Source: Rubrivivax sp. (GTDB taxonomy: Bacteria; Pseudomonadota; Gammaproteobacteria; Burkholderiales; Burkholderiaceae_C). From it: 64,000 bases of DNA. The DNA is taken from NCBI GenBank assembly GCA_030680415.1, contig JAUXVE010000010.1:1-64000 (forward strand), given 5' to 3'. Below are positions 8,384-43,026 of the stretch, piece by piece; within the stretch, counting starts at the first letter, position 1; each line of letters starts with the position of its first letter. The translations under genes and the position numbers were made by a program. The notes beneath the pieces were generated by a model, which was given only the letters and a program-made list of their open reading frames with translations, made no database searches and was not told where the DNA came from.

Positions 8384-8496
8384 TTACTCCACCGCCTTCA
8401 CCATCGCCTCGACCACCTTCTTCGCGTCGCCGAAGACCATCATTGTCTTGTCCATGTAGAACAGCTCGTTGTCCAGCCCGGCGTAGCCGCTGGCCA
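8384..8496 (-). repeat. Degenerate copy of the pntB 3' end (direct repeat of 14281-14393)
   Basis: 113 bases aligned without gaps to the end of the intact pntB gene, with nine mismatches by eye (about 92% identity). Translated on the minus strand it still reads ASGYAGLDNELFYMDKTM and ends with an in-frame TAA where pntB has TGA. Most differences are synonymous or conservative. It sits 10 bases beyond the stop of res and marks the left edge of the fic-mod-res islet, while the intact gene marks the right edge in the same orientation. Confidence 0.9.
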
Positions 8497-8506
8497 CCGG
8501 GTGGGT

Positions 8507-11240
8507 TCATACCAGCACCGCCTCGATCTGCTGCGCCATCGTCATGCCGCGCTCGTGCTTGTAGACCATGGCGAAGACCGCACGGCCGCCGCTGCGTTCG
8601 GCCCACACCGCGCCGACCTGGCTCTTCTCGATTTCCTTGGGTACGGCGCGCAGATGCTCGCCCTTGTACTCGGCCACGAACACGCGTCCGTCCGTCAGCT
8701 GGCAGACGAAATCGGGAAAGAAGCGGCCGAACGAGGTCGGCAGCCAGAACCCGGCCACCGGGTCCGAGTCGAGGTTCCGCACCCAGTGCAGCACCTTCGG
8801 CTGCTCGTCCAAGGCCATGGCGCAGCGCCATTCCTCGCTGCCGTCTTCAAGATCGGCCAGTACTGGGTAGTAGTGCTTGCTGAAGCGGAACTTGCCCTGG
8901 TAGCGCTTGTTGCCAGGCACCGGGTACACGGCCGGGTCGAACTTGAATTCGTGGCTGGGGCTCGCGGCGATCTCCCAGCCGCCGTCCAGCATCAACTGCC
9001 TGAACGCGGACTGGGCCGCCTTGTCGCGCAGCTCGGCGATGTGCGTCGCCAGGCGCTGCGCCAAGGGGTACTGGTGCCGCGCCAGTTGCTCCAGCGGAAT
9101 GTGTTTGTCATGGACCAGGTGGTGCACCGCGGCCAGCGCAAAGGCGCGTACAGGGGTCGGCAAGATGTCCACGGCCACGTTGCGTGAGGGGTGCTGCAGC
9201 TCTGCCGCCAGCCAGCGCGCCAGGTCGTCGGCAGTGACGGTGCCGGCCACGTGGTCCAGCGGCAGCTGTGCGGCATCGCCCCGGCCGACGCGCAGTTTGT
9301 GCCCGTCGAGATACACCTCCCACAGCGTGCCCTGCTCGGCCATCGTGAAGCCTTCCAGCGCCACCGGCTGGGCCAGCAGGTTCAAGTCCACCGTCTCCAG
9401 CACCGCCTCCCGCTCCAGCAGCACCAGATCGCCCTGGCCGCCCTGGCCGGCACGATAACAGAGCCGGGGCACCGGAACGAAAGTCGCGCCGCGGTGCGCC
9501 GGAGCTTGCGCGCCGGCCACCAGCGCGTTGTGGCGCTCGATCTGCTGCGCCACCTGCTCGCGTTGCTTGCCCTTCTGTGCGGCCACCAGGGCCTCGCCCA
9601 AGGCGGCCGGCACCGCGCCGCGCAACTGAATGCGCTGGCGGCTGCCGTCGCTGCTGATGGTCGCCACGCCTTGCGTCACGGCGTCTTGCACGGCCTGAGG
9701 CAGAACCTTGTCCGCCGGCAGGTCCACGGCCAGCGAGGGCAGGTCGGGCGGGGTTCTGGCGAACAGGGGCCCGTCATCGCGGAATTCCAGCGGCAACTGC
9801 GGCGCGATCATCGACGCCATGTCCAGCGGGTCGAAGCCCATGCCGTCGATCAGGCGGTCGGCCAGCGCGTTGGCGGCCATGCCGGTTTCGGCCTCGGTCA
9901 CGTGCGCATAGGCCTTGTTCAGCGCCGGCTGCGTGCGCCGCGTGGCGTAGGGCATGCGCAGCACGCGGCCCAGCAACTGCTCCACCGCGGTGGCCGAACG
10001 GATGCTCTGCACCGAACACAGGATGTAGGCAAACGGGCAGTCCCAGCCCTCGCGCAAGGCCTGCACGGTGATGATGTAGCGCACCGGGCAGGCGCGGCTG
10101 GCCAGGTCCAGCCCTTCCAGCCCGCGCTCGCTGCCCGTGGCCACCTTCACCTGGTCGGCCGGGATGTGCAGCTCGTCCACCAGGTGCGTGCGCAGGACGT
10201 CCACGTTCACGGGTTCGGTGCTGTTCTGCGCCTGCAGCAGCACGATGGGGCGGATATGGGCGCCCTTGTTGGGCCCGTCCCCCGCCTCCTCCTGCTGGGC
10301 CAACGCCTCCAGCAGGCGCTGGTTCTGCACCGCGTCGAATACCGCCGCTTGCCAGCCGCGCGTGTGCTCGATCAGCGTGATCGGCATCTTGATCATGTGC
10401 TCGGCCTGCAACTGCTGCGCCGAGACATGGAACAGCACGTTGGTGCACTTCGGGATCGGTGTGGCAGTCAGCTCCAGGATCAGCGCCGGGTTCAACCGTT
10501 TCAGCGCCTCGAAGCTGCGCTCGGTCTTGGTGTTGTGCGCCTCGTCGACGATGACGTAGGGTTGCCGCAACGCCAGCCAGTTGGCCAGGCTCCAGCGCGG
10601 CTGGCCGACGAAGCGCACCAGCATCTCGCGGCCGGCCTTGGCCGAGTGCGCGTCGTCGACGCTTACCAGGGCGTCGGGCAGGTCGCGCAGCGCGCATTCA
10701 GCGCCGCCGCAGGCAGGCCGCGGAAATGCGGCTCGAAGGCCCCCGAGAAGGCATAGACATTGCGCTGGTCGGCGTCTTCGACGCGAAAGCTCTGGATCGT
10801 GGCCACCACCACCACGGCGTGGGCGTCGAAGTCCTGCGGCGTCAGTGTCGCCACGGACTCCAGGTCGCACACCCGAACGCCGTCACCGCAGGCCTGGGCC
10901 AGCGCTTCGCGGAACGGGTGCCCGGGCGTCGACAGCGCCGCCAGCGTCTGTGTGCGGATGGTGTCGCTGGGCACCAGCCACAGCGCCAGCGGCTGCGCGC
11001 TGGCCACCGGCCATGCACGCGCCATGCGCCGACGGCATGCGCGGCCAGCAGCGTCTTGCCGCCGCCGGTGGGGATGCGCAGGCACACGCAAGGTGTGTCG
11101 CCGAAGGGCTCGGGGTTGTAGCCGTAGCCGGTTTCGCTTTCGAAGGCCGAACGTGCGCCGTGCAGAGGGGCCACCCGCAGGTACTTCTCCAATGCCAGCA
11201 GGGCCTGGTCCTGGTAGCGCCTGAGGGCGAAGGTGGCCAC
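8507..11240 (-). pseudogene. res: Type III restriction endonuclease subunit (Res), two frameshifts
   Basis: ATP-dependent DNA translocase and nuclease subunit of a type III restriction system. It begins with GTG at 11240 (ATFALRRYQDQALLALEKYL), has the P-loop PTGGGKTLLAAHAV, then loses frame at about 11025-11032. The next segment, ALWLVPSDTIRTQTLAAL ... TIQSFRVEDADQRNVYAFSG, runs to about 10690-10705, where frame is lost again. The remaining two thirds is continuous: VIVDEAHNTKTERSFEAL (DEAH box), ILELTATPIPKCT, LREGWDCPFAYILCSVQSI, EQLLGRVLRMPYA. Total span is about 911 codons, close to full length, so only small indels are involved. It starts 3 bases after the toxin gene, in the same operon. 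Functional enzyme is unlikely unless the frameshifts are sequence errors. Confidence 0.85.
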
Positions 11241-11243
11241 GCG

Positions 11244-11534
11244 CTAGACCCGTCCGCGCCAGTAGCCGGGGCGCTGGCGCTGGTGCGTCACGGCCAGGAT
11301 GCGGATGAGGTCTGCCTCGACGCGGTAGATCACCGCATACGGAAACCGATTCAACAAGCGCCTTCGCGCGCGCCGCCCGATCGGCGCCCAGGCCAGCGGC
11401 TGCTCGACGATCCACTCGATCGACCGCTGCAACTCGCTGGCAAAGGCATCGCCCAACTCGCCGTTGATGGTCGCGTAGTAGCGGCGCGCGGAGTCGGCCT
11501 CGTCCAGCGCCGGCTCGACGATCTCCAGCCGCAT
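11244..11534 (-). CDS. RelE/ParE-family toxin
   Basis: A 96-residue toxin of the ParE/RelE fold, expected to act on gyrase (ParE) or the ribosome (RelE). Family features are EPALDEADSARRYYATIN near the N-terminus, a basic RRARRRLLNRFPYAVIYRVE strand region and the final ILAVTHQRQRPGYWRGRV, the usual C-terminal strand with W-R. The start ATG overlaps the antitoxin stop by one base (TGATG), giving translational coupling. The pair sits between mod and res in one operon. The frame is intact, unlike both flanking restriction genes. Confidence 0.85.
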   Translation of the reverse strand: MRLEIVEPALDEADSARRYYATINGELGDAFASELQRSIEWIVEQPLAWAPIGRRARRRLLNRFPYAVIYRVEADLIRILAVTHQRQRPGYWRGRV

Positions 11535-11779
11535 CAAAGGCCCAGACGCGTTTTCGCCTCGGCCCAGGGGATCGAGCGCATCTCGCCGCGGTCGACGGCA
11601 TCCAGCCGCCGTTCCGCTTCCTCGATCCACGCAGCCTCGATTTCAGCGTCCATCGCCTGGGGCAGCGTCTGCCGCAAGCGATCGACCAGCAGTTCGCGCT
11701 CGGCCAGTGGCATGCGTTCGGCTTGTGCGACGAGTTCATCGACCGTGGGAACAAGGACGTCGGCTGCAGTGCTGGCCAT
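11534..11779 (-). CDS. Antitoxin (addiction module component, TIGR02574 type)
   Basis: An 81-residue acidic protein that should bind and neutralise the toxin encoded immediately after it. LPLAERELLVDRL-like sequence (MPLAERELLVDRLRQTLP) and the closing WAEAKTRLGL are typical of the addiction-module component family that pairs with ParE/RelE toxins. The gene begins 38 bases after the end of the mod remnant and ends in a TGATG overlap with the toxin. The frame is intact. Whether it has its own promoter in the 38-base gap cannot be told. Confidence 0.8.
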   Translation of the reverse strand: MASTAADVLVPTVDELVAQAERMPLAERELLVDRLRQTLPQAMDAEIEAAWIEEAERRLDAVDRGEMRSIPWAEAKTRLGL

Positions 11780-11817
11780 GGTGCTGCTTCCAGGGAGAGT
11801 TCAGTGCAACTGCAAGC

Positions 11818-12970
11818 TTACCGCGGCACCGCGTGCGGCAATTGCTTGAACGAGATGCCCTCGGCGGCAAGCCGCGCCTGCCCCAGCCGGCACGCTTCAC
11901 CGTAGACGACCTTGGGGCCGCCGTGCCGGCAGCTGCTGCGCAGTGCGGGCAGCACCTCGGTGGTCAGCAGGTTGCCGCTGCTCGGCCGGCGGTCGCCCAG
12001 GATGCCGTTGAAGAGCAAGACGTAGGCGGTGCCGTCGTGCGTGCCGAGCAGTGGCGTGTCGGGTGTCAGCGCCGGCAGCGCGGTGCCGGTTTCGCGCATC
12101 CAGATGAAGGCGGCCAGATCGGCGAAGCGCACGTCGGCGTGGATCTCGCCGTTGGCGTCGAACAGCGGCGCGCCGAGTTGCATGAAACGGAACCCGCCAC
12201 CGCCTTGCCAGTTGACGGCAGCGCTGATGCCGCCGGGTTCACCGGCCAGCACTTTCTGCAGTTCGCTCTTTGCTTGGCCAGTGGTACCCACTTCGGTGTG
12301 CGGCCATAGCGTCGACGGCACGAGCCCAGCCTGAACTTCAGAGAGAAACTTCTTTACTCGCGGCGCATTGCTTCCCTCTGCGCCGAACCAGATCCGGTTG
12401 TCAGCGACCATCTCGCCGAATCGCGGCTCGGTGTAGAGCCAGCAGCGGCCTGGAGGCGGATCGACGCGCCTGCCGGACGGCGTTGTGACGGTGAAGAACT
12501 GCGAAGCGCGCCTTTCGATTCTCGCGAGTGTGAGTTTTCTGCCAGAAGACGTCCGCAAGGAAATTGCCCCGCCCAAACACCTCGTCCATCAGGACCTTGA
12601 GGTAGTGCCCCTCGTTGTCGTCGATGGTCACCCAGATCGACCCGTCCTCGGCCAACAACTCGCGCAGCAACTGCAGCCGTGGCAGCATCATGCTCAACCA
12701 CTGGCTGTGTTCCAGGTTGTCGTCGTAGTGCTCGAAGGCGCTCTTGGTGTTGTACGGCGGGTCGATGAAGATGCACTTCACGCGTCCGCGGGAGAAGGGC
12801 AGCAGCGCCTTCAAAGCTTCCAGGTTGTCGCCCTGGATCAGCAGGTTGCCGCTGCCGGCTGCGGCGGCGCCGAATTCGTGGCCGGCGGCGTGCGGGCGCA
12901 GCACGCGCGTGGGCACACGCTCGGCCACGCGGAAGGCGTCGTCGCGGTTCAGCCAGTCGAGGGTGGGCAT
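11818..12970 (-). pseudogene. mod: Type III Mod DNA methyltransferase with internal deletions
   Basis: Adenine methyltransferase and specificity subunit of a type III system, now broken. The first part (from ATG 12970) is normal: NLLIQGDNLEALKALLPF, then FIDPPYNTKSAF (catalytic DPPY), WVTIDDNEGHYLKVLMDEVF and VFWQKTHTREN. After about 12510 the frame changes, and the protein resumes at SQFFTVTTPSGRRVDPPPGR, so the stretch normally lying between (part of the recognition region) is gone. Later, KSELQKVL joins directly to AGEPGGISAAVNWQGGGGF. The segment normally between these carries the FxGSGT cofactor-binding motif, and it is absent. About 380 codons remain of an expected 550-650. It cannot bind S-adenosylmethionine in the usual way, so it is very probably dead. 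Confidence 0.85.
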
Positions 12971-12973
12971 GGG

Positions 12974-14197
12974 TCAGCGTCTTCTTGTCGCGCGGCGCCG
13001 CTCGGGCGTGGGCGGCTCGGGGTCCAGTTCGGCATTCAGCAGCGCCACATAGTCGCGGTAGGCGAAGACTCGGCCGCGCTGGCGCTCGGTGAGCTCCTCC
13101 ACCAGGCCCAGCCGCTGCAGGTGCGCCAGCGTCTTGTTCACGGTGGCCGGCGTCAGCCTCGTCGCGGCGCCGAGCGCGGCCGCCGTGGCCACGGGTTGGC
13201 GCTGCAGCGCGTCGTGCAGGGTCCAGGCCGAAGGCGCGGCGCGGCCCAGCGCGGCCAGCCGCTCGCGGTCGGTGGCCACCAGCGCCAGCAGCGCCTGCGC
13301 GGTCATCACCGCCTGGGTGGCGCTCACCTGCACGGCCTCGGCGAAGAAGTCGAGCCAGCGCTCCCAGTCGCCATGCGTGCGCACCTCGTTCAGCAGCTCG
13401 TAGTACAGCGGCCGGTGGGCCTTGAAGAACAGGCTCGGGTAGAGCAGCGGCTCGTGCAGCAGCCCGTCGGCCACCAACTGCAGCACGATCAGCAGCCGGC
13501 CGATGCGGCCGTTGCCGTCCAGAAAGGGGTGGATGGTCTCGAACTGCACGTGGGCCAACGCAGCCCGCAGCAGCGGCGACGTCGGCTCCGGGTCGTCGTG
13601 CAGGAAGCGCTCGAAGGCATCGAGGCAGTCGCCCAGCCGGCCGGCCGGCGGCGGCACGAAGACCGCGTTGCCGGGACGGGTGCCGCCCAGCCACACCTGC
13701 GAGCGGCGGAACTCGCCGGGCGTCTTGCCGCGGCCGCGCGGGTGGTCGAGCAGCACGCCGTGCATGTCGCGCAGCAGGCGCAGGCTCAAGGGGAAGCCGC
13801 CGCGCAGGCGCTCGATGCCAAATGCCATGGCGGCGACACAGCGGCTGACCTCGCGGGCATCGTCCAGCGGCACGCCGGACTGTTCATCGATCTCGAACAG
13901 CAGCAGGTCGGCCAGCGACGATTGCGTGCCCTCGATCTGCGACGACAGCACCGCCTCCTTGCGCACGAAGCTGTAGAGCACCAGCTGCGCATTGGGCAAC
14001 ATCGAAGAGACGGCGTCGAGCCGGCCGAGCGCCACCAGCGCGTCGTCGAAGCGCCGCCGCAGGCCCGGCGTCCACTGGATCGGCGGCGTCGGCGGCAACG
14101 GCGCCGGAACGAAGGCGCGGAAAGGCTCGCCTTGCGTGCTGACGCTGACGGTACGGCCGGGCGGCGCGCGGTGCATGGGTTCAGGAGCCTCAAACAA
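12974..14197 (-). CDS. fic: Fic family AMP-transferase-like protein with winged-helix C-terminus
   Basis: A 407-residue protein that would transfer AMP (or a related group) to a protein target. The Fic motif HPFLDGNGRIGRLL is complete. An N-terminal SSQIEG (about residues 84-90) fits the inhibitory S/T-x-x-x-E-G helix of class II Fic proteins, which blocks ATP until relieved. The flap GEFRRSQVWLGG is present. The C-terminus (TLHDALQRQP ... TRLTPATVNKTLAHLQRLG) is a winged helix, so the protein may also bind DNA. It is the first gene of the operon, ending 3 bases before mod. A strong palindrome lies just upstream of its start and could be its own operator. Intact, in contrast to mod and res. 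Confidence 0.9.
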   Translation of the reverse strand: MFEAPEPMHRAPPGRTVSVSTQGEPFRAFVPAPLPPTPPIQWTPGLRRRFDDALVALGRLDAVSSMLPNAQLVLYSFVRKEAVLSSQIEGTQSSLADLLLFEIDEQSGVPLDDAREVSRCVAAMAFGIERLRGGFPLSLRLLRDMHGVLLDHPRGRGKTPGEFRRSQVWLGGTRPGNAVFVPPPAGRLGDCLDAFERFLHDDPEPTSPLLRAALAHVQFETIHPFLDGNGRIGRLLIVLQLVADGLLHEPLLYPSLFFKAHRPLYYELLNEVRTHGDWERWLDFFAEAVQVSATQAVMTAQALLALVATDRERLAALGRAAPSAWTLHDALQRQPVATAAALGAATRLTPATVNKTLAHLQRLGLVEELTERQRGRVFAYRDYVALLNAELDPEPPTPERRRATRRR

Positions 14198-14209
14198 GCC
14201 GGAGCGCTA

Positions 14210-14235
14210 TTTTACGTTCGAATGTCAACGTAAAA
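14210..14235. promoter_or_regulatory. Palindrome TTTTACGTT-N8-AACGTAAAA before fic
   Basis: Perfect 9-bp inverted repeat with an 8-base spacer, 12 bases upstream of the fic start on the minus strand. It is AT-rich in a 70% GC region and has helical-turn spacing (17 bp centre to centre), as for a dimeric winged-helix or HTH protein. The likely reader is the Fic protein's own C-terminal winged helix. Confidence 0.6.
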
Positions 14236-14239
14236 CAAA

Positions 14240-14261
14240 AGGGCCGGCAGCGCCGGCCCTT
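14240..14261 (-). terminator. Rho-independent terminator of the pnt operon
   Basis: AGGGCCGGC, loop of 3, GCCGGCCCT: a nine-pair GC stem read on the minus strand 20 bases after the pntB stop and followed by TTTTGTTTT. It separates the pnt operon from the fic-mod-res operon. Confidence 0.8.
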
Positions 14262-14280
14262 GCTGCGTGAGCGGCGCGCG

Positions 14281-15717
14281 TCACTCGATGGCCTTCACCA
14301 TCTCCTCGACCACCTTCTTCGCGTCGCCGAAGACCATCATCGTCTTGTCCATGTAGAAGAGTTCGTTGTCGAGCCCGGCGTAGCCGCTGGCCATTGAGCG
14401 CTTGTTGACGATCACGGTCTTGGCCTTGTAGGCCTCGAGGATGGGCATGCCGTAGATGGCGCTGCCCTTGGTGTGCGCAGCAGGGTTCACGACGTCGTTG
14501 GCGCCCAGGATGATGGCCACGTCGGCCTGGCCGAACTCGCCGTTGATGTCTTCCATCTCGAAGACCTGGTCGTAGGGCACCTCGGCCTCGGCCAGCAGCA
14601 CGTTCATGTGGCCGGGCATGCGGCCGGCCACCGGGTGGATGGCGTACTTGACCGTCACGCCCTTCTCGGTGAGCTTGGCCGCCAGTTCCTTCACCGCGTG
14701 CTGCGCGCGCGCCACCGCCAGGCCGTAGCCGGGAACGATGATCACGGTTTCGGCGTTGCCCAGCACGAAGGCGGCATCGTCGGCGCTGCCGCTCCTGACC
14801 GGACGTTGCGCACCCGCGCCGGCGGCCGGCCCGGCGACCTCGCCGCCGAAGCCGCCCAGGATGACGTTGAAGAACGAGCGGTTCATGGCCCTGCACATGA
14901 TGTAGCTCAGGATCGCGCCCGAGCTGCCCACCAGCGAGCCGGCGATGATCAGCATGCTGTTGTTGAGGCTGAAGCCGATGCCCGCCGCGGCCCAGCCCGA
15001 GTAGCTGTTGAGCATGCTCACCACCACCGGCATGTCGGCGCCGCCGATCGGGATGATGATCAGCACGCCGATCACGAAACTCAGGGCCAGCATGGCGAAA
15101 AACGCCGGCCAGTTCTCGGTGAAGGCGAAGACCAGGCCCAGCGCGACGGTGGCGATGCCGAGCACCAGGTTCAACATGTGCTGGCCGCCGAAGGTGACCG
15201 GCGCGCCCTGGAAGAGGCGGAACTTGTAGGTGCCCGAGAGCTTGCCCCAGGCGATGACCGAGCCGCTGAAGGTGATGGCACCGATGGCCGCGCCCAGGAA
15301 CAGCTCGAAGCGGTTGCCCGTGGGGATCGGCTCGCCCCTGGCGACGATGCCGAAGGCCCAGGGTTCGGCCACCGCGGCCACGGCAATGAACACCGCCGCC
15401 AGGCCGATCATGCTGTGGAAGAAGGCCACCAGTTCGGGCATCTTGGTCATCTCGACCGTCTTGGCCCGCCAGGCGCCGTAAATGGCGCCTGGCAGCAGCC
15501 CGACCAGCACCCAGACCATGCCCTGGGCCCGTGCCTGGCCCATGCTGCCGGCCAACTCCACGATCAGCGCCGCCGTGGTGAACATGGCGATGGCCATGCC
15601 GACCATGCCGAACAGGCTGCCGCGGATCGACGTCGTGGGGTGGCTCAGCCCCTTGAGCGCCTGGATGAAACAGACGCTGGCCACCAGGTACAGCAGCGTG
15701 ACGAGGCTCATGCTCAT
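14281..15717 (-). CDS. pntB: NAD(P) transhydrogenase subunit beta
   Basis: The 478-residue beta subunit of the proton-translocating transhydrogenase, which uses the proton gradient to drive hydride transfer from NADH to NADP+. The first two thirds are membrane helices (for example LVTLLYLVASVCFIQALKG and FVIGVLIIIPIGG). The C-terminal NADP-binding domain III shows VIIVPGYGLAVARAQ, HPVAGRMPGHMNVLLAEA and ANDVVNPAAHTKGSAIYGMP, all family hallmarks. ATG 15717 overlaps the stop of pntAb by four bases (ATGA). The last 113 bases are repeated at 8384-8496. Complete gene of usual length. Confidence 0.97.
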   Translation of the reverse strand: MSMSLVTLLYLVASVCFIQALKGLSHPTTSIRGSLFGMVGMAIAMFTTAALIVELAGSMGQARAQGMVWVLVGLLPGAIYGAWRAKTVEMTKMPELVAFFHSMIGLAAVFIAVAAVAEPWAFGIVARGEPIPTGNRFELFLGAAIGAITFSGSVIAWGKLSGTYKFRLFQGAPVTFGGQHMLNLVLGIATVALGLVFAFTENWPAFFAMLALSFVIGVLIIIPIGGADMPVVVSMLNSYSGWAAAGIGFSLNNSMLIIAGSLVGSSGAILSYIMCRAMNRSFFNVILGGFGGEVAGPAAGAGAQRPVRSGSADDAAFVLGNAETVIIVPGYGLAVARAQHAVKELAAKLTEKGVTVKYAIHPVAGRMPGHMNVLLAEAEVPYDQVFEMEDINGEFGQADVAIILGANDVVNPAAHTKGSAIYGMPILEAYKAKTVIVNKRSMASGYAGLDNELFYMDKTMMVFGDAKKVVEEMVKAIE

Positions 15718-16037
15718 TTCTTTTCCCCCGCCGCCGGAGCGCTCTTCGGCGCTTTCTTCTTGAACATCTCGAGCATGCGCCGCGTGACGAGGAAGCCGCC
15801 GAAGACGTTGACCGCCGCCAGCGCCATCGCCAGCACGCCCATGGTGCGGCCGAGGGTGGTCTCGGTCAGCGCCGCGGCCAGCATGGCGCCGACGATGACG
15901 ATGGCCGAGATCGCGTTGGTCACCGCCATCAGCGGCGTGTGCAGCGCGGGTGTCACCGTCCACACCACGTGGTAGCCCACGTAGATGGCGAGCACGAAGA
16001 TGATGAGGTTGGTGATGGTGGGGCTGACGATGTCCAT
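15714..16037 (-). CDS. pntAb: NAD(P) transhydrogenase subunit alpha 2 (membrane part)
   Basis: A 107-residue membrane subunit corresponding to the C-terminal part of E. coli PntA, encoded separately as in many betaproteobacteria. It has three to four hydrophobic helices (TNLIIFVLAIYVGYHVVW, then the conserved TPALHTPLMAVTNAISAIVI, then LAMALAAVNVFGGFLVTRRM). A short Lys-rich tail ends in GEKK. It starts 38 bases after pntA and overlaps pntB by four bases, so the three subunits are made from one message. Confidence 0.95.
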   Translation of the reverse strand: MDIVSPTITNLIIFVLAIYVGYHVVWTVTPALHTPLMAVTNAISAIVIVGAMLAAALTETTLGRTMGVLAMALAAVNVFGGFLVTRRMLEMFKKKAPKSAPAAGEKK

Positions 16038-16075
16038 GTTCTTGTTCCTTGATTGCGCTCGACTTCGCCGCGGAC

Positions 16076-17194: not shown

Positions 17195-17283
17195 GCAGGC
17201 CTCCTCGCGTTTTGTGTTGGATGGTGGTCGGCGAAGCTACCACAAACTTCCGGCCGCGCCGCTGATGCAAAGCAGGGTCTAGC

Positions 17284-17789: not shown

Positions 17790-17890
17790 CCGCGGCCAGC
17801 CAGTCCGGCAGCAGCGCGTTCACGCGCGACGGCGACAATGGGGGTCCCGGTGCCACGTCACCGCTTCCCAACCACCCGACGACGCCGAAC

Positions 17891-18951: not shown

Positions 18952-18972
18952 CACGACGTCGCTTCTGGTCTT

Positions 18973-19004: not shown

Positions 19005-19029
19005 TATACCGCCGCAGTCACGCCGGTGC

Positions 19030-20529
19030 TCACTGCCAGCTCAGCGCCGCCAGGTCGTTGACGAACAGCGGCATGTCCTTCCACAGTCCCCTGAGCCGGG
19101 CGTTGGCGACCGTGATCCAGGTCGGCTGGTAGAGGTAGGCGGCTACGGCGTCGTGCGCCACCAGCGTTTGCGCCTCGGCCATCAGCTCGTTGCGTTCGGC
19201 GGCGTCGATCGTCGCCTGCACCCTGGCCCACAGCGCGTTGAACTCGGCGGAGTCGTAGTTCCAGTAGTAGTTGGGCCGCGCGAAGTTGCCGAAGTCCAGC
19301 GGCTCGACGTGCGAGATGATGGTCAGGTCGTAGGCCTTCTGGCCGTACACGCCGCTGAGCCACTGCGCCCACTCGATGTTTTCGATCTTGGCGTTGATGC
19401 CTACCTTGGCCAGCATCGCCGCGACGACCTCGCCGCCCTGGCGCGCGTAGGGCGTGGGCGGCAGCTTCATCGTCAGTTCCAGCGGCGGCGTGATGCCGGC
19501 CTGGTGCAGCAGCGCTCGCGCCTTGGCGGGGTCGTACGGGTTGATGCCGGTGGTGTCGACGTAACCCGGTGCTCCCGGCACGTAGAAGCTGCCGATGGGC
19601 ACGCCGAAGCCGTCGGCGGCGCCTTCGATCACCGCCTGGCGGTCGATGGCCGCGGCGATGGCGCGGCGCACGCGAACGTCGTCCAGCGGCTTGCGCTTGT
19701 TGTTGATGGCGACGATGGTCTTGGCGCGCGAGCCGCCGACCAGCACCTGGAACTTCCTGTTGGCCTCGAAGGCCTTCAGGCTGCGTGCCGCCGCCACGCG
19801 CGGGAAGATGTCCACGTCGCCGGACAGCAAGGCCGCCACCTGCGCCGCCGGATCGCTGATGAAGCGCATCGTCACGCGCCGCAGCTTCACGTCCCTGGCA
19901 TCGCGGTGGCCGTCCCAGCGCACCAGGGTGACCGAGGCGCCCTTGTTCCAGGCCTCCAGCCGGTAGGGCCCGGTGCCGACGGGCTGCGTCTGGTTGCCGG
20001 CCACGCTCTTGGGCTCGACGATGATGGCCGTGGCCTGGCCCAGCTGGAACAGCAGGTCGGGGTTGCCGTTCTTCAGCTTCAGCACCACCGTGTTCGCGTC
20101 GGGCGTGTCGATGCCGGCGATGTTGGCGTAGACGGCCTTGTCCTTGTTCGTGCTGGTCTTGTCGGCGGCGCGTTCGAAGGAGTACTTCACCGCTGCCGCA
20201 TCGAACGCTTCGCCGTTGTGGAAGATGACGCCGCGCTTCAGCTTGAAGGTCCAGGTCCTGAGGTCGGGCGACACCGTCCAGCCCTCGGCCAGCAGCGGCG
20301 CGGTGCGGCCGTCGCTGGTGATCTTGATCAGCGTCTCGTAGATGTTGTACAGCGTGATCTCGGCGATGGCCGAAGCCGCGCCGGCCGTCGGGTCCAGCCC
20401 CGGCGGCTCGAGCGTCATCGCCAGCACGGCGGTGTCCTTGCCAGGCTGTGCCCGCGCCGGCACGACGGCGACGAGCAGCGCTACGGCCAGCGCAGCCGCG
20501 ATCCAGACGAGCGGGCGTGGGCGGGTCAT
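19030..20529 (-). CDS. Peptide ABC transporter substrate-binding protein (family 5)
   Basis: A 499-residue periplasmic binding protein for peptides or related ligands. It has a signal peptide (PLVWIAAALAVALLVAVVPARAQ split around residues 6-28), then LEPPGLDPTAGAASA, TWTFKLKRGVIFHNGEAFD (the family 5 signature), GTGPYRLEAWNKG and INNKRKPLDDVRVRRAIAAA. It is a close paralogue of the product of 55208-56728: GTGPY, WNKGxS, RWDGHRDA and DPxAQVAALL are shared. No permease or ATPase genes are adjacent, so it may serve the transporter at 55-64 kb or be an orphan. ATG 20529 follows a GGAGG at about 20534-20538. Confidence 0.9.
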   Translation of the reverse strand: MTRPRPLVWIAAALAVALLVAVVPARAQPGKDTAVLAMTLEPPGLDPTAGAASAIAEITLYNIYETLIKITSDGRTAPLLAEGWTVSPDLRTWTFKLKRGVIFHNGEAFDAAAVKYSFERAADKTSTNKDKAVYANIAGIDTPDANTVVLKLKNGNPDLLFQLGQATAIIVEPKSVAGNQTQPVGTGPYRLEAWNKGASVTLVRWDGHRDARDVKLRRVTMRFISDPAAQVAALLSGDVDIFPRVAAARSLKAFEANRKFQVLVGGSRAKTIVAINNKRKPLDDVRVRRAIAAAIDRQAVIEGAADGFGVPIGSFYVPGAPGYVDTTGINPYDPAKARALLHQAGITPPLELTMKLPPTPYARQGGEVVAAMLAKVGINAKIENIEWAQWLSGVYGQKAYDLTIISHVEPLDFGNFARPNYYWNYDSAEFNALWARVQATIDAAERNELMAEAQTLVAHDAVAAYLYQPTWITVANARLRGLWKDMPLFVNDLAALSWQ

Positions 20530-23878: not shown

Positions 23879-25767
<1,889 letters not shown>

Positions 25768-31734: not shown

Positions 31735-31828
31735 ACGGTGCGCTCGGAGGTCGAGCCGGGATCTTAGCCACCCCAGGCTGGCCCAAGCGCGAGCGAAAGC
31801 CTGCACGTGCAGGCTCGAGGCGTTGCAG

Positions 31829-32569: not shown

Positions 32570-32821
32570 CGTGCTTGTTCCGGTTCTCTGGGATGGAAGG
32601 AACCACGATGCAGCGGCAGCGCACCTCGCGTCTGTGCTCTGCCGAACATAGCCTCCACCTGCTCACCCGAGGCTCCCGAGAAGCCTGCCGCGTGTTCACC
32701 TGCGCCGCCATGCCCTGCAAACAGCCGGCCTCGCCCCATCGACCCCCGAGATTTTGTCAATGCCTGCGCCGCCGGCTCCAGCACTGATACGTGCCCAGGA
32801 AGAACTTCACGCGCACCGCCG

Positions 32822-33508: not shown

Positions 33509-33532
33509 CCCACCGACTGGCGTGGGTTGGCC

Positions 33533-35849
<2,317 letters not shown>

Positions 35850-35905
35850 GGGGCAGGCCCGAAGGCCCGATGTCACGGCAAGGATAGACCGGTCAAAATT
35901 GTTCC

Positions 35906-38053
35906 ATGCCCAGCCCGCCGCCAGCGACCGCGGCCCCCAAGCCCCCACAGGACAAGCTCTCGGCGCCCGCGCGGGCGCTGCGCAAGCTCGGCCTGGCGCG
36001 TGACATCGACCTCGCGCTGCACCTGCCGATGCGTTACGTCGACGAGACGCGCATCGTGCCCATCGCCACGCTGCGCGACGGTGACACCGCGCAAGTGCAG
36101 GGCACGGTGCGCGAATGCCGCGTCGAGACACGCACGCGACGCCAGCTCGTCGTGCGCCTGGCCGACGACAGCGGCGAGCTCGTGCTGCGCCTCGTCCACT
36201 TCTACCCCTCGCACCAGAAGACGCTCGCCGTGGGCCACCTCGTTCGCGCCCGCGGCGAGGTGCGCGGCGGCTTCTTCGGCCGCGAGATGGTGCACCCCGA
36301 GTTCCGCGCCGTCGCCGCCGACACCGCCTTGCCGCAGGCGCTGACGCCGGTCTACCCGAGCAGCGCACAGCTGCCGCAGGCCTACCTGCGCAAGGCCGTG
36401 GCCTCGGCGCTGGCGCGCGCGCCGCTGGCCGAGCTGTTGCCGGCCGAGGTGCTGCCGTGCGGCCTGCCGACGCTGCGCGAGGCGCTGCTGTTCCTGCACC
36501 ACCCCAGCCCCGCGGTGCCGCTGGAAACGCTCGAAGACCACAGCCACCCGGCCTGGCAGCGGCTGAAGTTCGAGGAGTTGCTGGCGCAGCAGCTGTCGCA
36601 GGCCCAGGCGCAGGCGGCGCGCGCCCTGCTGGCGGCGCCGGTGCTGCCGCCGCGCAGCGGCGGCCTGGCGGCGCGGCTGCTGGCCACGCTGCCCTTTGCG
36701 CTGACCGCCGCGCAGCAGCGCGTGGTGGCCGAGATCGGCGCCGACCTCGGGCGCCCGCAACCCATGCACCGGCTGCTGCAGGGCGATGTCGGCTCGGGCA
36801 AGACCGTGGTCGCGGCGCTGGCCGCGGCCGTGGCCATCGACGCCGGCTGGCAATGCGCGCTGATGGCGCCCACCGAGATCCTGGCCGAGCAGCACTTCCG
36901 CAAGCTCGTCGGCTGGCTGCAGCCGCTGGGCGTGCAGGTGGCCTGGCTCACCGGCAGCCGCAAGGGCCGCGGCCGCAAGGCGATGGTCGAGAGCGTGGCC
37001 TCGGGCCAGGCCATGCTGGTGGTGGGCACGCACGCCGTGATCCAGGACGACGTTGCCTTCGCGCGGCTGGGGCTGGCCATCGTCGACGAGCAGCACCGCT
37101 TTGGCGTCGCGCAGCGCCTCGCGCTGCGTCAGAAGCTCGTCGATCAAGCTGGGCCCTCCCCCGCGAGCGGGAGCGACGGGGAGGGGGCGGGCCACAGTAA
37201 AGATCATGAGGATGGGGTTCGAGCACAGCTCGAACCCCACCTCCTCATGATGAGCGCGACGCCGATCCCGCGCACGCTGGCGATGAGCTACTTCGCCGAC
37301 CTCGACGTCAGCACCATCGACGAACTGCCGCCCGGGCGCACGCCGGTGCTGACCAAGGTCTTCGCCGACAGCCGGCGCGAGCAGGTGGTGGCGCGCATCC
37401 GCGACGAAGTCGGGCGCGGCCGCCAGGTCTACTGGGTGTGCCCGCTGGTGGAGGAGAGCGAGCACCTCGACCTGCAGAACGCCACCGCCACCCACGCCGA
37501 GCTCGGCGCCGCGCTGCCCGGCGTGGTGGTCGGCCTGCTGCACGGGCGCATGCCGCAGGCCGAGAAGGCGGCGGTGATGGCGCTGTTCACCGCCGGCGCG
37601 ATGAAGCTGCTGGTGGCCACCACCGTCATCGAGGTCGGCGTCGACGTGCCCAACGCCAGCCTGATGGTGATCGAACACGCCGAGCGTTTCGGACTGGCGC
37701 AGCTGCACCAGCTGCGCGGCCGTGTCGGCCGCGGTGAGGTGGCCAGCGTGTGCGTGCTGCTGTACACGGCGCCGCTGTCGGCCACCGGAAAGGCGCGCCT
37801 GCAGGCCATGGCCGAAACCAGCGACGGTTTCGAGATCGCGCGCCGCGACCTCGACATCCGCGGCCCCGGCGAGTTCATGGGTGCGCGCCAGAGCGGCGAC
37901 GCGCTGCTGCGCTTCGCCGACCTGCAGCAGGACAGTGCGTTGCTGCAGCACGCGCGAGCGGTGGCGCCGCGGCTGCTGCGCCACCATCCGGCGGCGGCCG
38001 AGGCGCACGTGACACGCTGGCTGGCCGGGCGCGCCGAGTTCCTGAAGGCCTGA
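35906..38053 (+). CDS. recG: ATP-dependent DNA helicase RecG (with unusual internal insert)
   Basis: A 715-residue branch-migrating helicase that regresses stalled replication forks. Wedge/OB domain at residues about 60-170 ([31 protein letters not shown]), then Walker [18 protein letters not shown], motif Ia [32 protein letters not shown] (motif II), [18 protein letters not shown] (motif III), [39 protein letters not shown] split over motifs V and VI. Between motif II and motif III lies about 30 extra residues ([20 protein letters not shown] region) encoded by two palindromes at 37151-37251. The insert keeps frame, so the enzyme is probably made. The loop is variable in the family, which makes tolerance plausible. 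Confidence 0.94.
37151..37251. repeat. Two consecutive palindromes inserted in frame in recG
   Basis: First (37151-37193): CCCTCCCC ... GGGGAGGG with GC-rich flanks, a hairpin-like, REP-style sequence. Second (37203-37251): a 21-base left arm starting ATCATGAGGA and a right arm ending TCCTCATGAT, pairing fully except for two extra bases, around the 5-base loop CACAG. Together they encode most of the extra residues in RecG and have no counterpart in the RecG proteins I know. Confidence 0.8.
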
Positions 38054-38081
38054 TGGACGCGGCGCGCGCGACAATCTCACA

Positions 38082-39005
38082 ATGACCCTGACCGAGCTCA
38101 AGTACATCGTCGCTGTCGCGCGCGAGAAGCACTTCGGCCGTGCCGCCGAGGCCTGCTTCGTCGCGCAGCCGACGCTCAGCGTGGCCATCAAGAAGCTGGA
38201 GGCGGAGCTCGACGTCAAGATCTTCGAACGCGGCACCAGCGAGGTCAGCGTGACGCCGCTGGGCGAGCAGATCGTGCGCCAGGCGCAGCAGGTCATCGAG
38301 CAGGCGGCGGCGATCAAGGAGATCGCCAAGCGCGGCAAGGACCCGGTGGCCGGGCCGCTGCGGCTGGGCATCATCTACACCATCGGCCCCTACCTGCTGC
38401 CCGACCTGGTGCGCCAGGCCATCGAGCGCGTGCCGCAGATGCCGCTGATGCTGCAGGAGAACTTCACCGCCAGGCTGCTGGAGATGCTGCGCACCGGTGA
38501 ACTGGACTGCGCGATCATGGCCGAGCCGTTTCCCGACAGCGGGCTGGCCACGGCAAAGCTGTACGACGAGCCCTTCGTCGCCGCCGTGCCCACCGGACAC
38601 GCGCTGGCCAGGCGCAAGTCGATCACGGCCGAGGAGCTGAAGCAGGAGACGATGCTGCTGCTGGGCACCGGCCACTGCTTCCGCGACCATGTGCTCGAGG
38701 TCTGCCCCGAGTACGCGCGCTTCGCCAGCGACGCCGAGGGCATCCGCAAGAGCTTCGAGGGCAGCTCGCTGGAGACCATCAAGTACATGGTGGCCTCGGG
38801 CATGGGTGTCACGGTGGTGCCGCAACTCAGTGTGCCCAAGGAGGTGCAGCCGCACATCCGCTACGTCAAGTTCACCGCCCCGGTGCCGACGCGCCGCGTC
38901 GTGCTGGCCTGGCGTCGCACCTTCCCGCGCTACGAGGCGATCGCGGCGCTGCGCAACTGCATCTATGCCTGCCCGCTGCCGGGCGTCAAGCGGCTGACGA
39001 ACTGA
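38082..39005 (+). CDS. oxyR: Hydrogen-peroxide-sensing LysR regulator OxyR
   Basis: A 307-residue LysR regulator. The N-terminal HTH reads FGRAAEACFVAQPTLSVAIK. The redox cysteines fall at exactly residues 199 and 208 (GTGHCFRDHVLEVC), the same numbering as E. coli OxyR Cys199 and Cys208, so peroxide sensing by disulfide formation is expected. SGMGVTVVPQLSV and the C-terminal RTFPRYEAI are family-like. Starts 28 bases after recG and is probably co-transcribed with it, an arrangement I recall for Burkholderiales. Confidence 0.96.
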   Translation: MTLTELKYIVAVAREKHFGRAAEACFVAQPTLSVAIKKLEAELDVKIFERGTSEVSVTPLGEQIVRQAQQVIEQAAAIKEIAKRGKDPVAGPLRLGIIYTIGPYLLPDLVRQAIERVPQMPLMLQENFTARLLEMLRTGELDCAIMAEPFPDSGLATAKLYDEPFVAAVPTGHALARRKSITAEELKQETMLLLGTGHCFRDHVLEVCPEYARFASDAEGIRKSFEGSSLETIKYMVASGMGVTVVPQLSVPKEVQPHIRYVKFTAPVPTRRVVLAWRRTFPRYEAIAALRNCIYACPLPGVKRLTN

Positions 39006-39058
39006 GCGGCGCGAGCGTCGAACCGGGTCCGGCGCGATAATTGCGGTTTCCCTGATAC

Positions 39059-39081
39059 GCGGCCCGCTTCGCGCGGGCCGC
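39059..39081 (+). terminator. GC hairpin between oxyR and prfC
   Basis: Perfect nine-pair stem GCGGCCCGC / GCGGGCCGC with loop TTCGC, followed by TTGCATTTC and then, 10 bases later, the prfC start. It may end the oxyR transcript. Because it sits where the prfC ribosome binding site should be, and no Shine-Dalgarno is visible, it could also affect prfC translation. Confidence 0.5.
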
Positions 39082-39090
39082 TTGCATTTC

Positions 39091-40734
<1,644 letters not shown>

Positions 40735-40741
40735 CACTGGA

Positions 40742-40857
40742 CGCAGGGCCGTCCCTGCGGACGGACCTGCGCCTGCGGCATCGGCCGGCGCCTGCAAGCG
40801 CCGGCGCGCCCTGCAAGGGCGATCAGGCCAGACATGCCTGGCCGCGCTGTCGCGGCC
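40742..40857. repeat. Array of five adjacent hairpins after prfC
   Basis: In 116 bases between prfC and hepT: CGCAGGG-CCGT-CCCTGCG (40742-40759); GCCGGCGC-CTGCAA-GCGCCGGC (40784-40805); GCCCT-GCA-AGGGC (40808-40820); CAGGC-N7-GCCTG (40824-40840); GGCCGCG-CTGT-CGCGGCC (40840-40857). All stems are perfect. Any one could end transcription of prfC or of hepT from the other side, but five in a row is more than a terminator needs. No T tracts. Confidence 0.65.
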
Positions 40858-40868
40858 CGGCCCGACGA

Positions 40869-41249
40869 TCAGTCCGGCGGCGGACCCCAGCGGTCCAGAA
40901 AAGCCAGCAACTGACCCTTCAGATGGGGAACGCTCTCGGTGACGACGAGCCAGAGTGTTGCGTTGTCCAGTGTGAGGTAACTGTGCGCCACGCGGTTTCG
41001 AGTTCCAATGATCTCGCGCCAGGCGATTTCGGGTGCCAGTGCTCGCACCGAGTCCGGCAACTTCAGCGCCGCGACGCCGATCAGCTCGATGTTGCGCAGC
41101 GTCGCGTCGTAACGCATGCGGTCGACCAGCAGGCCAGCCAGGTCGACACCGGCGCTGTACTGAAGCACACGATCGCAGAACTCCAGCATGTCGCGGAGAT
41201 ATAGCGCGTCGTCGCGCTCAGGCAACGGCGATGGCGTCACGTTCGACAT
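40869..41249 (-). CDS. hepT: HepT-type HEPN ribonuclease toxin
   Basis: A 126-residue HEPN toxin of the DUF86 group. The RX4HXY active-site motif is complete in RNRVAHSY (Arg, His and the Tyr that partner MntA modifies by AMPylation). Preceding helices (ALYLRDMLEFCDRVLQYSAG, YDATLRNIELIGVAALKLPD) match the family. It lies downstream of and overlaps mntA by 32 bases, the usual mntA-hepT order and coupling. The toxin would cleave RNA or tRNA when not neutralised. Located 134 bases after prfC, on the opposite strand. Confidence 0.9.
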   Translation of the reverse strand: MSNVTPSPLPERDDALYLRDMLEFCDRVLQYSAGVDLAGLLVDRMRYDATLRNIELIGVAALKLPDSVRALAPEIAWREIIGTRNRVAHSYLTLDNATLWLVVTESVPHLKGQLLAFLDRWGPPPD

Positions 41250-41511
41250 ACGGCCTGAGTTCGGGCCGCAGGGCGGTCTCGGTGACCAGATCGACTGGAA
41301 GGCCCAGAAGGTCCTCGATATAGAACTGCACGCCGAAAAAGGCCGATGGAGTCGGCGGCTCGTCAAAGCCCACGAGGATGTCGACGTCGCTGTCCTCGCG
41401 CGCCGTACCACGCGCCAGGCTGCCGAACAGCGCCAGCCGCCGCACGCCGAAGCGTTCGGCGAGCACGGGCTTGTGCAGGCTCAGCAAGGCCAGGGTGCGT
41501 TCGCGGTCCAT
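41218..41511 (-). CDS. mntA: MntA-type nucleotidyltransferase antitoxin
   Basis: A 97-residue minimal nucleotidyltransferase. The motif GSLARGTAREDSDVDILVGF supplies G-S and the two metal-binding Asp residues (D-V-D). In characterised pairs MntA adds AMP units to HepT to silence it. The C-terminal YIEDLLGLPVDLVTETALRP is also typical. ATG 41511; the coding end overlaps hepT. The upstream 20-odd bases join the remnant of a DNA methylase, so the promoter may derive from that remnant. Confidence 0.9.
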   Translation of the reverse strand: MDRERTLALLSLHKPVLAERFGVRRLALFGSLARGTAREDSDVDILVGFDEPPTPSAFFGVQFYIEDLLGLPVDLVTETALRPELRPYVERDAIAVA

Positions 41512-41534
41512 GGCCGGATCATGCCGTGCCTTGG

Positions 41535-42041
41535 GCCCCGGCGTCCATCAATCGGCAGCAAAGTCCAGGCCCTGCTGGCGGTCTCGATGTCGCCGTCCAG
41601 GCGCACGACGGGCTGCGCGAGCTCGCCCGATCGTCACAGCGAGAACGCAACGCCGTCGGTGTAGAGCAGGTTCGGCAAGGCCTGCAGGCGCTGCCACTGC
41701 TGCTTGTCGTGCGCGTCCCTGAAGCGGCGCGGGTCGGCGCCCTTGCCGGGCGCTTTCAGCTTCACGACGCCGACCAGGGCACCACCCACCGTGACGGCAT
41801 GGTCGGGGCGCGTGCGCAGTTCGGAGACCGTCAATTCGCTCACCGTGACCACCCTGCCCGGTTTGTGGCCGCACAGCACAGCCAGATCGCTGACCAGTTG
41901 CTCGAACGGGGCGCGAATCTGATCCTCGGGCTCGCCTGCGAGCTCGGCATCAGGCACTTTGGCAACGAGGCCCAGCACATGCGACGAGCGAGCACGGGCG
42001 ACTTCGTCCGCCAATTCGAACTGTCCCTTCGGCAGGGCCAG
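41535..42041 (-). pseudogene. N-terminal fragment of an N-6 DNA methylase / type IIG restriction enzyme
   Basis: The fragment encodes the N-terminal nuclease-like part of a type IIG-style or N-6 methylase protein: EPEDQIRAPFEQLVSDLAVLCG, LRTRPDHAVTVGGALVGVVK (acidic residue then K-L-K-x-P-G-K-G), DAHDKQQWQRLQALPNLLYT. A TGA stop at 41634-41636 stands where Trp (TGG) is expected; the same frame then continues as RSGELAQPVVRLDGDIETAS. Beyond about 41535 nothing methylase-like remains, so the catalytic domain is gone. The 5' end is cut where the prfC copy begins. Confidence 0.7.
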
Positions 42042-42328
42042 GTTCCGCAGCGTGGAAGTGGCCGACCCGCTGAAGACCAAGCAGCTCAAGGCCGGCCTCA
42101 CGCAGCTCGTGAAGTGGGCGCGATCCCAGTCTTCCGGCCGCTCGTCGGCGGCGAGCGCTCAAGCGCTTCACCGACGGCAACGCACACCGCGTGGCCTTTG
42201 GTGCCGTCGACGCGCCGACGGTGCTGGTGGAGTACGCGCCCGAACTGCGCGCCATCGAAAGCAACGGGCCCAAGATCAAGTTCCACGCCCTGAGTGAACA
42301 CGCCGGGCTGGTGTTCCAGAAGCGGCTG
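42042..42328 (+). repeat. Degenerate copy of the prfC 3' end (direct repeat of 40291-40725)
   Basis: Begins TTCCGCAGCGTGGA as at 40291 and ends AAGCGGCTG as at 40725, in the same orientation. Relative to the intact gene it has small indels near 42108-42136, an internal deletion of about 145 bases (CTCGTCGGC joined to GGCGAGCGC), and scattered substitutions; aligned parts are about 90% identical by eye. It lacks the prfC stop: the sequence passes directly into antitoxin codons. Confidence 0.9.
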
Positions 42329-42547
42329 CGCCAGAGTGCCACGCGCACGGGGCGCAGCACCAGCGACGTTGTTCGCGCCGCGCTGCAGGCCTACCTTGAC
42401 CAACCCGACGCGGGCCCCGCGCGCTCGGCCTTTGAACTGGGCGCCGACCTGTTCGGCCGCCACCGCGGCAGTGCCGATCTGGCGACGCAGCGCAAGCGTG
42501 TCCTGACCGCCGCCTGGGGCGATCGCCACGCCCGGCGCGGCGCGTGA
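42191..42547 (+). CDS. Ribbon-helix-helix antitoxin fused to a prfC fragment
   Basis: Frame of 118 residues from GTG 42191. Residues 1-46 are RF3 C-terminus (VDAPTVLVEYAPELRAIES, GLVFQKRL). Residues 47-118 are a VapB/CopG-like antitoxin: RQSATRTGRSTSDVVRAALQ is the helix-helix of the DNA-binding fold, and SAFELGADLFGRHRGS ... KRVLTAAWGDRHARRG is a toxin-binding tail I recall from this antitoxin group. The usual opening strand (ISVRLP-like) is absent and replaced by RF3 sequence. The stop overlaps the vapC start (GTGA). Whether translation starts at 42191 or further down is uncertain; neutralisation could survive even if DNA binding does not. Confidence 0.6.
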   Translation: MAFGAVDAPTVLVEYAPELRAIESNGPKIKFHALSEHAGLVFQKRLRQSATRTGRSTSDVVRAALQAYLDQPDAGPARSAFELGADLFGRHRGSADLATQRKRVLTAAWGDRHARRGA

Positions 42548-43026
42548 GCATCCGACGCGCGACCGCCACGGCGCAGGAACCCGCCGCCCGCCACCTGGCC
42601 CATCACGGCCCCGTGCTGGTCGACAGCGGCCCGCTGATCGCCCTCTTCAACGCGGGCGACCACTGGCACGCACCGGTGCTCGCGTGGCTGCAGGCCAACC
42701 CCGGCGCCACGCTGATCAGCACCTGGTGCGTGGCCACCGAGGTCTGCGCCCTGCTCGCCCGGCGCATGGCCAACGACTGTGCGCTCGACTTCCTGCGCTG
42801 GGCGCAGCGCGGCGGGATCACGCTCGACCGCGCCGCGGAAGGCTCGCTGACCGACGTGCTGCGCATCAGCGAGCGCTTTGTCGACCTGCCCTTCGACCTG
42901 GCCGATGCGTTCGTCGCCGAGGCGGCCACGCGACTGAAGCTCAAGCACTTGCTGTCGATCGACGCCGACTTCGACGTTTACCGCGACCGTGCCGGCCGGG
43001 CGCTGGTCAACCTGCTGCGGCGCTGA
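42544..43026 (+). CDS. vapC: PIN-domain toxin (VapC-like)
   Basis: A 160-residue PIN ribonuclease. Acidic active-site residues are present in VLVDSGPLIALFN, CVATEVCALLARR, FDLADAFVAEAA and LLSIDADFDVYR. GTG at 42544 overlaps the antitoxin stop. The N-terminus has about 22 residues before the PIN core (SIRRATATAQEPAARHLAH), longer than usual, so a later start is possible. Intact frame; expected to cleave RNA when free of antitoxin. Confidence 0.87.
   Translation: MSIRRATATAQEPAARHLAHHGPVLVDSGPLIALFNAGDHWHAPVLAWLQANPGATLISTWCVATEVCALLARRMANDCALDFLRWAQRGGITLDRAAEGSLTDVLRISERFVDLPFDLADAFVAEAATRLKLKHLLSIDADFDVYRDRAGRALVNLLRR

Follow-up and report, generated by a model that had tools for sequence, protein, structure and literature searches.

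In a 64,000-nt stretch of Rubrivivax sp. DNA (the window; contig JAUXVE010000010.1, labelled G000:C155 here, one contig of a 4.76-Mb, 167-contig assembly with 4.18% contamination), the 3′ ends of two housekeeping genes, pntB and prfC, recur as direct repeats near toxin-antitoxin (TA) and restriction-modification (RM) genes. Self-comparison of the window, with alignment E values from 5e-42 to 3e-64, confirms the two repeats reported in a preliminary description of this DNA and leaves no doubt that both are real and far from chance. We think it rather probable that the two genes anchor slots whose alternative contents have been stacked by one-sided homologous recombination combined with an illegitimate joint, leaving a tail of the anchor gene at the seam.

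Four observations carry this reading: i) the contents of both slots are polymorphic among relatives; ii) the tails are mainly allele-like; iii) vapBC normally stands directly beside prfC; and iv) no tyrosine recombinase or relic of one was found at either site, other recombinase types not having been searched for, in keeping with the earlier proposal that no dedicated recombinase is needed. From these we infer the one-sided homology, the illegitimate joint, and which parent was the donor. In the proposed course of events, pntB and prfC would be the left edges of two slots with contents differing among species of the genus; foreign DNA bearing another version of the slot would enter by homologous recombination at one end and illegitimate joining at the other; and the two slot versions would come to stand one after the other, neither having displaced its rival, with the torn anchor tail of the second parent remaining at the seam. 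The parents at prfC would have been [prfC-HepT/MntA-type IIG] and [prfC′-vapBC-ubiA], and those at pntB [pntB-fic-mod-parDE-res] and [pntB′-mod scrap-native flank]. Such one-sided joining explains why a tail lies at the seam and is allele-like, why the resident gene is intact and no recombinase is found, and why the versions are stacked. On the presumed homologous side the anchor genes are intact and the slot flanks recognisable.

The prfC slot

The prfC repeat falls into two parts in direct orientation, 40290-40405 matching 42042-42156 (109/116) and 40536-40725 matching 42143-42328 (168/190), and copy B lacks the ~130 bp between them. The order in the window is prfC, HepT/MntA, type IIG stub, prfC scrap, vapBC, ubiA:

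39082..40734, + strand: prfC, intact, left anchor of slot 2 (TIGR00503, 6e-206)
40869..41222, - strand: HepT-like RNase toxin (PF01934, 6.5e-20; NF047751 only below cut-off)
41218..41511, - strand: MntA-like antitoxin (NF047752, 9e-12, below cut-off)
41529..42040, - strand: N-terminal stub of a type IIG restriction-methylase (PDLC03631, 1.5e-30, profile positions 20-112 of 1086 over 41646-42026; stop at ~41640)
42042..42328, + strand: prfC scrap, copy B, with a 130-nt deletion and a frameshift (self-comparison and relatives' slots)
42329..42546, + strand: vapB, lacking its promoter region and initial 13 codons and joined in frame with the prfC scrap (RHH_1, 2.6e-4; comparison with G094)
42544..43026, + strand: vapC (64-80% to VapC of the same slot in relatives; no Pfam match itself, PIN in the homologue at L062)
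43225..44139, + strand: ubiA, right anchor of slot 2 (PF01040, 5e-57)

At a point 6 nt short of the prfC stop codon, the prfC copy gives way to vapB with the reading frame preserved. Compared by eye with the corresponding joint in a relative (G094), the window lacks the prfC stop, a TAATAC...GTATTAC palindrome, and the initial 13 codons of vapB; because vapB is truncated and lies beyond the end of the repeat, vapBC is outside the repeat and not intact. The sequence at the joint, again by eye, is common to prfC (AAGCGGCTGGAG) and to vapB (GAGCGGCTGCGC in G094) as an 8-nt microhomology, AGCGGCTG, with which the loss of the spacer between prfC′ and vapB accords, and which reads as the trace of a later deletion. 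By reading, a predicted PrfC′-VapB fusion of ~117 amino acids could be made from 42190-42546; the normal vapBC promoter region is gone.

The genus sample comprises 81 genomes (G000 is the genome of the window; L numbers denote fetched loci), and prfC was matched in 76 of them. The downstream DNA was read at 72 prfC loci, that of the window among them, representing 70 genomes; in 27 it extends to at most ~1.5 kb, so that more distant vapBC or ubiA could escape. Of the 72, 52 carry neither module (that is, neither the VapBC nor the HepT/MntA families; other genes may be present), 11 VapBC only, and 7 HepT/MntA only. VapBC is thus found in 13/72 and HepT/MntA in 9/72, and the two occur together only in the window and in G095; elsewhere the slot holds, among other things, sigma factors and Indigoidine_A proteins. 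In 12 of the 38 slots that have ubiA in reach, this gene follows prfC at a distance of no more than 160 nt. The prfC-ubiA interval has variable content between conserved flanking genes, as integrase-free hotspots do. In all 12 VapBC loci other than the window the vapB match begins 25-169 nt after prfC, so the scrap in the window stands where the end of prfC belongs. We therefore rejected the view that the prfC cargo lies inside a tail duplication: HepT/MntA is a usual resident of the slot, following prfC alone in 7 other loci without a second tail, and the usual neighbour of vapBC is the end of prfC. The prfC repeat is, as far as these sequences tell, the seam between two alternative slot versions and not the boundary of one cargo unit.

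Other partial prfC matches, in G010 (48%) and G090 (30%), are weak and were not taken as prfC tails, and an apparent partial copy in G021 was rejected, the gene being cut by a contig end. The genome of the window also has a second prfC on another contig (C25:98000-110615, L114; 82% DNA identity), followed by a MazE-like/PIN pair and ubiA; it is either contamination or a paralogue.

The pntB slot

The pntB repeat is likewise direct (14278-14393 against 8381-8496, 107/116 identical). The features of slot 1 are:

14281..15963, - strand: pntB, NAD(P) transhydrogenase beta, intact, left anchor of slot 1 (PF02233, 2e-183)
14278..14393, - strand: pntB 3′ end, repeat copy A (self-comparison)
12974..14197, - strand: fic, SoFic-like adenylyltransferase (PF02661/PF13784; PDLC03963, 1.5e-110)
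12401..12970, - strand: type III mod, N-terminal piece, broken (PDLC03644, 6e-67, profile positions 1-183 of 542)
11818..12576, - strand: type III mod, C-terminal piece, broken (PDLC03644, 3e-62, best stretch at profile positions 393-539 of 542)
11534..11782, - strand: antitoxin (Unstab_antitox) of a ParE-type pair (PF09720, 8e-13)
11244..11534, - strand: ParE-type toxin (PF05016, 1.5e-8, scanned as the open reading frame 11244-11630)
10842..11240, - strand: res, N-terminal piece, frameshifted (N-terminal match to Res of G028 and G065)
8507..10870, - strand: res, main piece (PDLC03650, 6e-152)
8381..8496, - strand: pntB tail copy B, in frame, with its own stop TAA, allele-like; the seam marker (self-comparison and allele comparison)
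7310..7369, - strand: second type III mod, a short weak scrap beyond the seam (47 nt at 87% to 12155-12201; tblastn with ModC 121-141, E 0.002)
4066..6915, + strand: right-hand neighbour of slot 1 (homologues downstream of pntB in G008, G012, G014, G017, G026, G084, and G094)

The fic product contains the Fic motif HPFxDGNGR. The main Res piece is 77% identical to Res of G028, itself ~5 kb downstream of pntB in that genome, and res is broken as well, its two reading frames (10842-11240 and 8507-10870) being in different frames. The mod pieces here and the type IIG stub at prfC bear out the earlier remark that a broken methylase lies beside intact-looking toxin genes at both sites. The mod scrap at 7310-7369, past the seam, hints at an earlier RM block in this slot.

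Two types of pntB occur, type 1 (window-like) and type 2, with ~50% protein identity between them. A search with the pntB tail found a match in 67 of the 81 genomes. We take rates from this search, since the 41 pntB loci that were fetched are a non-random set, several having been chosen for nearby RM matches. In 7/67 genomes pntB has a fic/type III RM block, or the relic of one, no more than 5 kb away; mod matches on the same contig and within that distance number 8 loci in 7 of the 67 (G000; G018, a scrap at E 4e-4; G023, on two contigs; G028; G065; G077; and G096) and occur behind both pntB types. By their translations, Fic stands between pntB and mod in 6 of these 8 loci and the toxin modules in that position vary, being HigBA-like in G065, G096, and one G023 locus and VapBC-like in G028. 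G028 and G065 carry complete fic/mod/parDE/res blocks at pntB, and G096 carries mod-res there, in no case with a second tail. On the far side, 6 of the 41 fetched loci have fadD no more than 400 bp from pntB, and in others fadD, an amidase gene, or a homologue of the gene at 4066 stands farther off; the interval between pntB and fadD/amidase is, like that at prfC, a hotspot of variable content between conserved genes.

G077 has its own type-2 pntB followed by a foreign (type-1-like) pntB tail, fic, mod::res, and a second tail of the foreign type. Since type-1-like tails here flank fic/mod::res behind a type-2 pntB, tails and cassette probably moved together.

Three side observations concern the same slot in relatives. 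G085, G024, and G086 each have two type-1 pntB copies, in G085 both on one contig. The G003 slot (L068, 4667-9688) holds pieces of an rhs-like gene, 89-96% identical, between PIN-type toxin genes, and the G029 slot (L073, 11361-15139) a repeated regulator tail around tricarboxylate-transporter-like genes, a like scar with non-defence cargo (gene names by reading in both).

Origin of the tails and competing explanations

The differences between tails and resident genes were sorted into sites variable and sites invariant among relatives and compared by Fisher's test; the p-values ignore phylogeny and serve as guides only. In pntB tail B, which matches tail A at 104/114 positions and tails of other species at up to 108/114, 7 of 10 differences fall among the 28/114 sites that vary in the tails of 36 relatives (p 0.002). 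For the prfC scrap the figure is 14 of 24 counted differences (29 relatives; p 0.009), the other 10 being at invariant sites, and for the tails of glcB, a further case elsewhere in the genome (described below), 7 of 14 (p 0.03). The glcB tails differ from each other (377/391) about as much as from the G034 allele (374 and 370 of 391). Differences at invariant sites imply that some decay followed. Thus pntB tail B is allele-like with some later change and keeps its frame and stop, and the prfC scrap appears to carry allele-like differences with decay on top; the preliminary description's "degenerate direct repeat" clearly suits only the latter, with its deletion and frameshift. Nor is the architecture the same at both genes, as had been claimed, the distal tail being in frame and largely allele-like at pntB and a decayed scrap at prfC, where the repeat separates two slot contents. 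Because the tails are more allele-like than copies of the resident gene would be, the incoming DNA probably bore its own gene piece, as had been suggested; the blocks of G028 and G065 show that a second tail is not required for acquisition.

Several findings weigh against stacking by one-sided joining. A second partial pntB tail occurs in only 2/67 genomes (G000 and G077) and a second prfC tail in only 1/76 (G000). G095 has both VapBC and an MntA homologue after prfC with no prfC scrap. Three of the 10 differences of pntB tail B are at invariant sites, where six control tails from other species, each with 4-6 differences at variable sites, have 0; the 7 of 14 invariant-site differences at glcB compare with 7-14 in four glcB controls; and the best match of the prfC scrap is the resident prfC (265/295) and not the gene from a known VapBC genome. 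In the window and in G077 the pntB tail has its left edge at the same place to within ~4 nt, and two assemblies break close to that point: the G067 contig begins (L190, G067:C235, position 1) 16 nt before the start point of tail B, and in G099 a 100-N scaffold gap (L191, G099:C202, 9382-9482) begins 10 nt before it, so that the pntB repeat may possibly lie at the same point in these genomes too. The common edge would also be accounted for by shared ancestry or by site-specific action. The small number of loci with scars fits the rarity of homology-facilitated illegitimate recombination in experiments (PMC5361080).

Many genomic islands integrate at gene 3′ ends via tyrosine recombinases, and here too a gene 3′ end is both intact and duplicated; a tyrosine recombinase, since lost or acting in trans, could have integrated an element at the pntB 3′ end, tail A being element-borne and tail B the displaced end. 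The layout fits, 13 Phage_integrase matches lie elsewhere in the genome, and the recurrent edge, with the breaks 10-16 nt from it in G067 and G099, keeps this account alive at pntB. The preliminary description named an att core at both sites as something that would refute its proposal. The initial 22 nt of the pntB repeat are identical between the copies, and that run is nearly invariant among relatives anyway. Unlike such islands, the sites yield no tyrosine recombinase: none of 114 slot loci is matched at E<=1 by a profile built from 11 integrases (which recovers 11/11 when each is left out in turn, worst E 8e-6), a result that does not extend to serine recombinases or transposases; one weak phmmer match (3e-4) lies in L206; and none of the 13 genomic matches is on the window contig or on C16, which carries glcB. 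The complete blocks of G028 and G065 and the mod-res of G096 lack a second tail at the same gene, and prfC is left unexplained; we regard site-specific integration as unlikely. The variant in which the fic/RM block itself bears a pntB-specific att was rejected, pnt genes being present in 1/80 named Res loci (L248) within at most 10 kb per side; in Limnohabitans and others fic-mod-res occurs without a pnt gene in the DNA examined (up to 10 kb per side, often less).

Insertion of an RM/TA unit with a long target duplication, of the Nobusato/Furuta type, would account for RM cargo unlinked to mobile elements between repeats of the order of 100 bp, as has been described, lengths here being 116-812 bp. 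Copies identical at birth and then decaying neutrally are expected under it, whereas the observed differences tend to fall at sites that vary from species to species, some other species come closer to pntB tail B than tail A does, and the unit inside the prfC repeat is a usual resident without duplication; we hold it to be quite unlikely. Local self-duplication of a gene end followed by decay would suit the closeness of the prfC scrap to the resident prfC and a gene copy on another contig (C12) that is 98.8% identical over part of its length, but the divergence of the pntB and glcB tails from the resident gene matches that of alleles from other species, and the vapBC context at prfC also speaks against it, making it very improbable. 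Most improbable of all is an assembly artefact, the fusion of two strain haplotypes in a metagenome contig. The fragmentation and contamination of the assembly, which likewise weigh against stacking, and the second prfC on another contig would suit it; yet by eye the res/pntB′ seam has no shared word that could mislead an assembler, the prfC scrap has decayed internally, and the independent genome G077 has a like architecture.

Recurrence, known systems, and meaning

The pattern is recurrent, as the preliminary description supposed: besides pntB in G077, it is found at glcB and at an amidohydrolase-like gene of the same genome. The own-genome survey covered a non-random 31 stretches (929,782 bp) outside the window for direct repeats of >=60 bp, >=76% identity, and <=20 kb apart, and found three gene-piece repeats around cargo: i) an 812-bp repeat (93.5%) at glcB (G000:C16:6500-26000, L379; a stretch lengthened after the find) enclosing a 12.7-kb RM island whose genes encode a PLD-SNF2 helicase, a Schlafen/AlbA protein, a type IIG enzyme, and an AAA ATPase; ii) two decayed amidohydrolase-like pieces on either side of a PIN toxin and an AbrB-like gene (amidohydrolase and AbrB by reading of translations); and iii) a dioxygenase-like gene and its decayed copy around non-defence regulator and OsmC-like genes (names likewise by translation). 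Arbitrary contigs yielded the glcB and C12 cases, and contigs known from integrase or RM matches the case on C160. Defence or TA cargo is present in two of the three and absent from the third, in a genome with about one toxin or methylase match per 97 kb (PIN 32, ParE 9, and N6_N4_Mtase 8 in 4.76 Mb). The enrichment for defence genes that had been predicted for such intervals is thus suggestive and not established, three cases from a partly biased sample being too few for a test.

Survey repeats set aside were those on C22, where a whole stretch is a repeated gene, on C28, where repeats are many, on C25 and C100, which show no clear gene tails, and on C7, where an integrase lies in between, together with those on C3, C26, C33, and C19, which were not inspected closely. 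The relatives' slot loci (121 loci, 1,020,747 bp; repeats of >=70 bp, >=78% identity, >=200 bp apart) contain repeats in five cases, G077, G003, G018, G029, and G085; by reading, those of G003 and G018 are rhs-like gene pieces (in G003 around PIN-type genes) and that of G085 is short with no clear gene.

Some further observations stand apart. The 812-bp glcB repeat holds the end of malate synthase G, a small membrane-protein-like gene, and an older glcB scrap, whose presence in both copies suggests an older, third layer. Some 30 kb of another contig (G000:C25, ~19-48 kb) has eight PIN/ParE toxin matches and several short repeats and could be an integron-like cassette array. Within the window, 19240-20491 and 55436-56696 are paralogous stretches, 71% identical, 36 kb apart, and in direct orientation; ARAGORN finds 0 tRNA genes in the window.

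The preliminary description knew of no named class for this form, a view that is wrong. Elements of the proposed mechanism are already published, RM systems with long target duplications and anchored illegitimate recombination among them. RM systems unlinked to mobile elements have been described as inserted with long target duplications of the order of 100 bp (PMC3874152, PMC3031569, citing Furuta 2010 and Nobusato 2000); the cases here are alike in RM cargo, in repeat lengths (116 bp at pntB, 812 bp at glcB), and in having no linked mobile element, and unlike in that the copies are allele-like and at prfC separate two slot contents rather than flank an insert. Homology-facilitated illegitimate recombination with a conserved "anchor" was proposed for type VI secretion modules of Vibrio (Kirchberger 2017, PMC5361080). 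These resemble our slots in the conserved anchor, the new module placed before the old, the retained remnants, the serial arrays, and the dispensability of a site-specific enzyme; there, however, the secretion cluster itself supplies the anchor and the older immunity genes persist, whereas here unrelated housekeeping genes serve as anchors, RM/TA genes are the cargo, and it is the 3′ tail of the anchor that forms the scar. Many hotspots lack any integrase, and double homologous recombination has been proposed for them (Oliveira 2017, PMC5635113); for the core defence hotspots of P. aeruginosa another paper states that such exchange leaves no scars derived from mobile genetic elements and assigns the question of how the hotspots are built to future work (PMC10250203). 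Such hotspots share with ours variable content between conserved genes, an over-representation of defence genes, and a frequent lack of mobility genes, and differ in that ours retain a gene-tail scar, which an illegitimate joint on one side would be expected to leave.

Only tentatively, and with more doubt than confidence, do we extend the argument to a recombinase-free ratchet by which defence slots of this genus would grow: a failed replacement would stack a new cassette and leave a donor-derived anchor tail; since loss of TA or RM genes can kill, stacks would be kept preferentially; and the tails would form a stratigraphy, findable and datable throughout a genome. We wish to stress what anchor-gene tails would offer. 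They would give a countable and datable footprint of donor allele, arrival order, and joint; they would allow the model of hotspot growth through homologous recombination to be tested from sequence alone; and they would provide another reading of the "long target duplications" around RM genes. Each join would be a fossil that can be read, showing how a genome may acquire defence genes with no dedicated integration enzyme.

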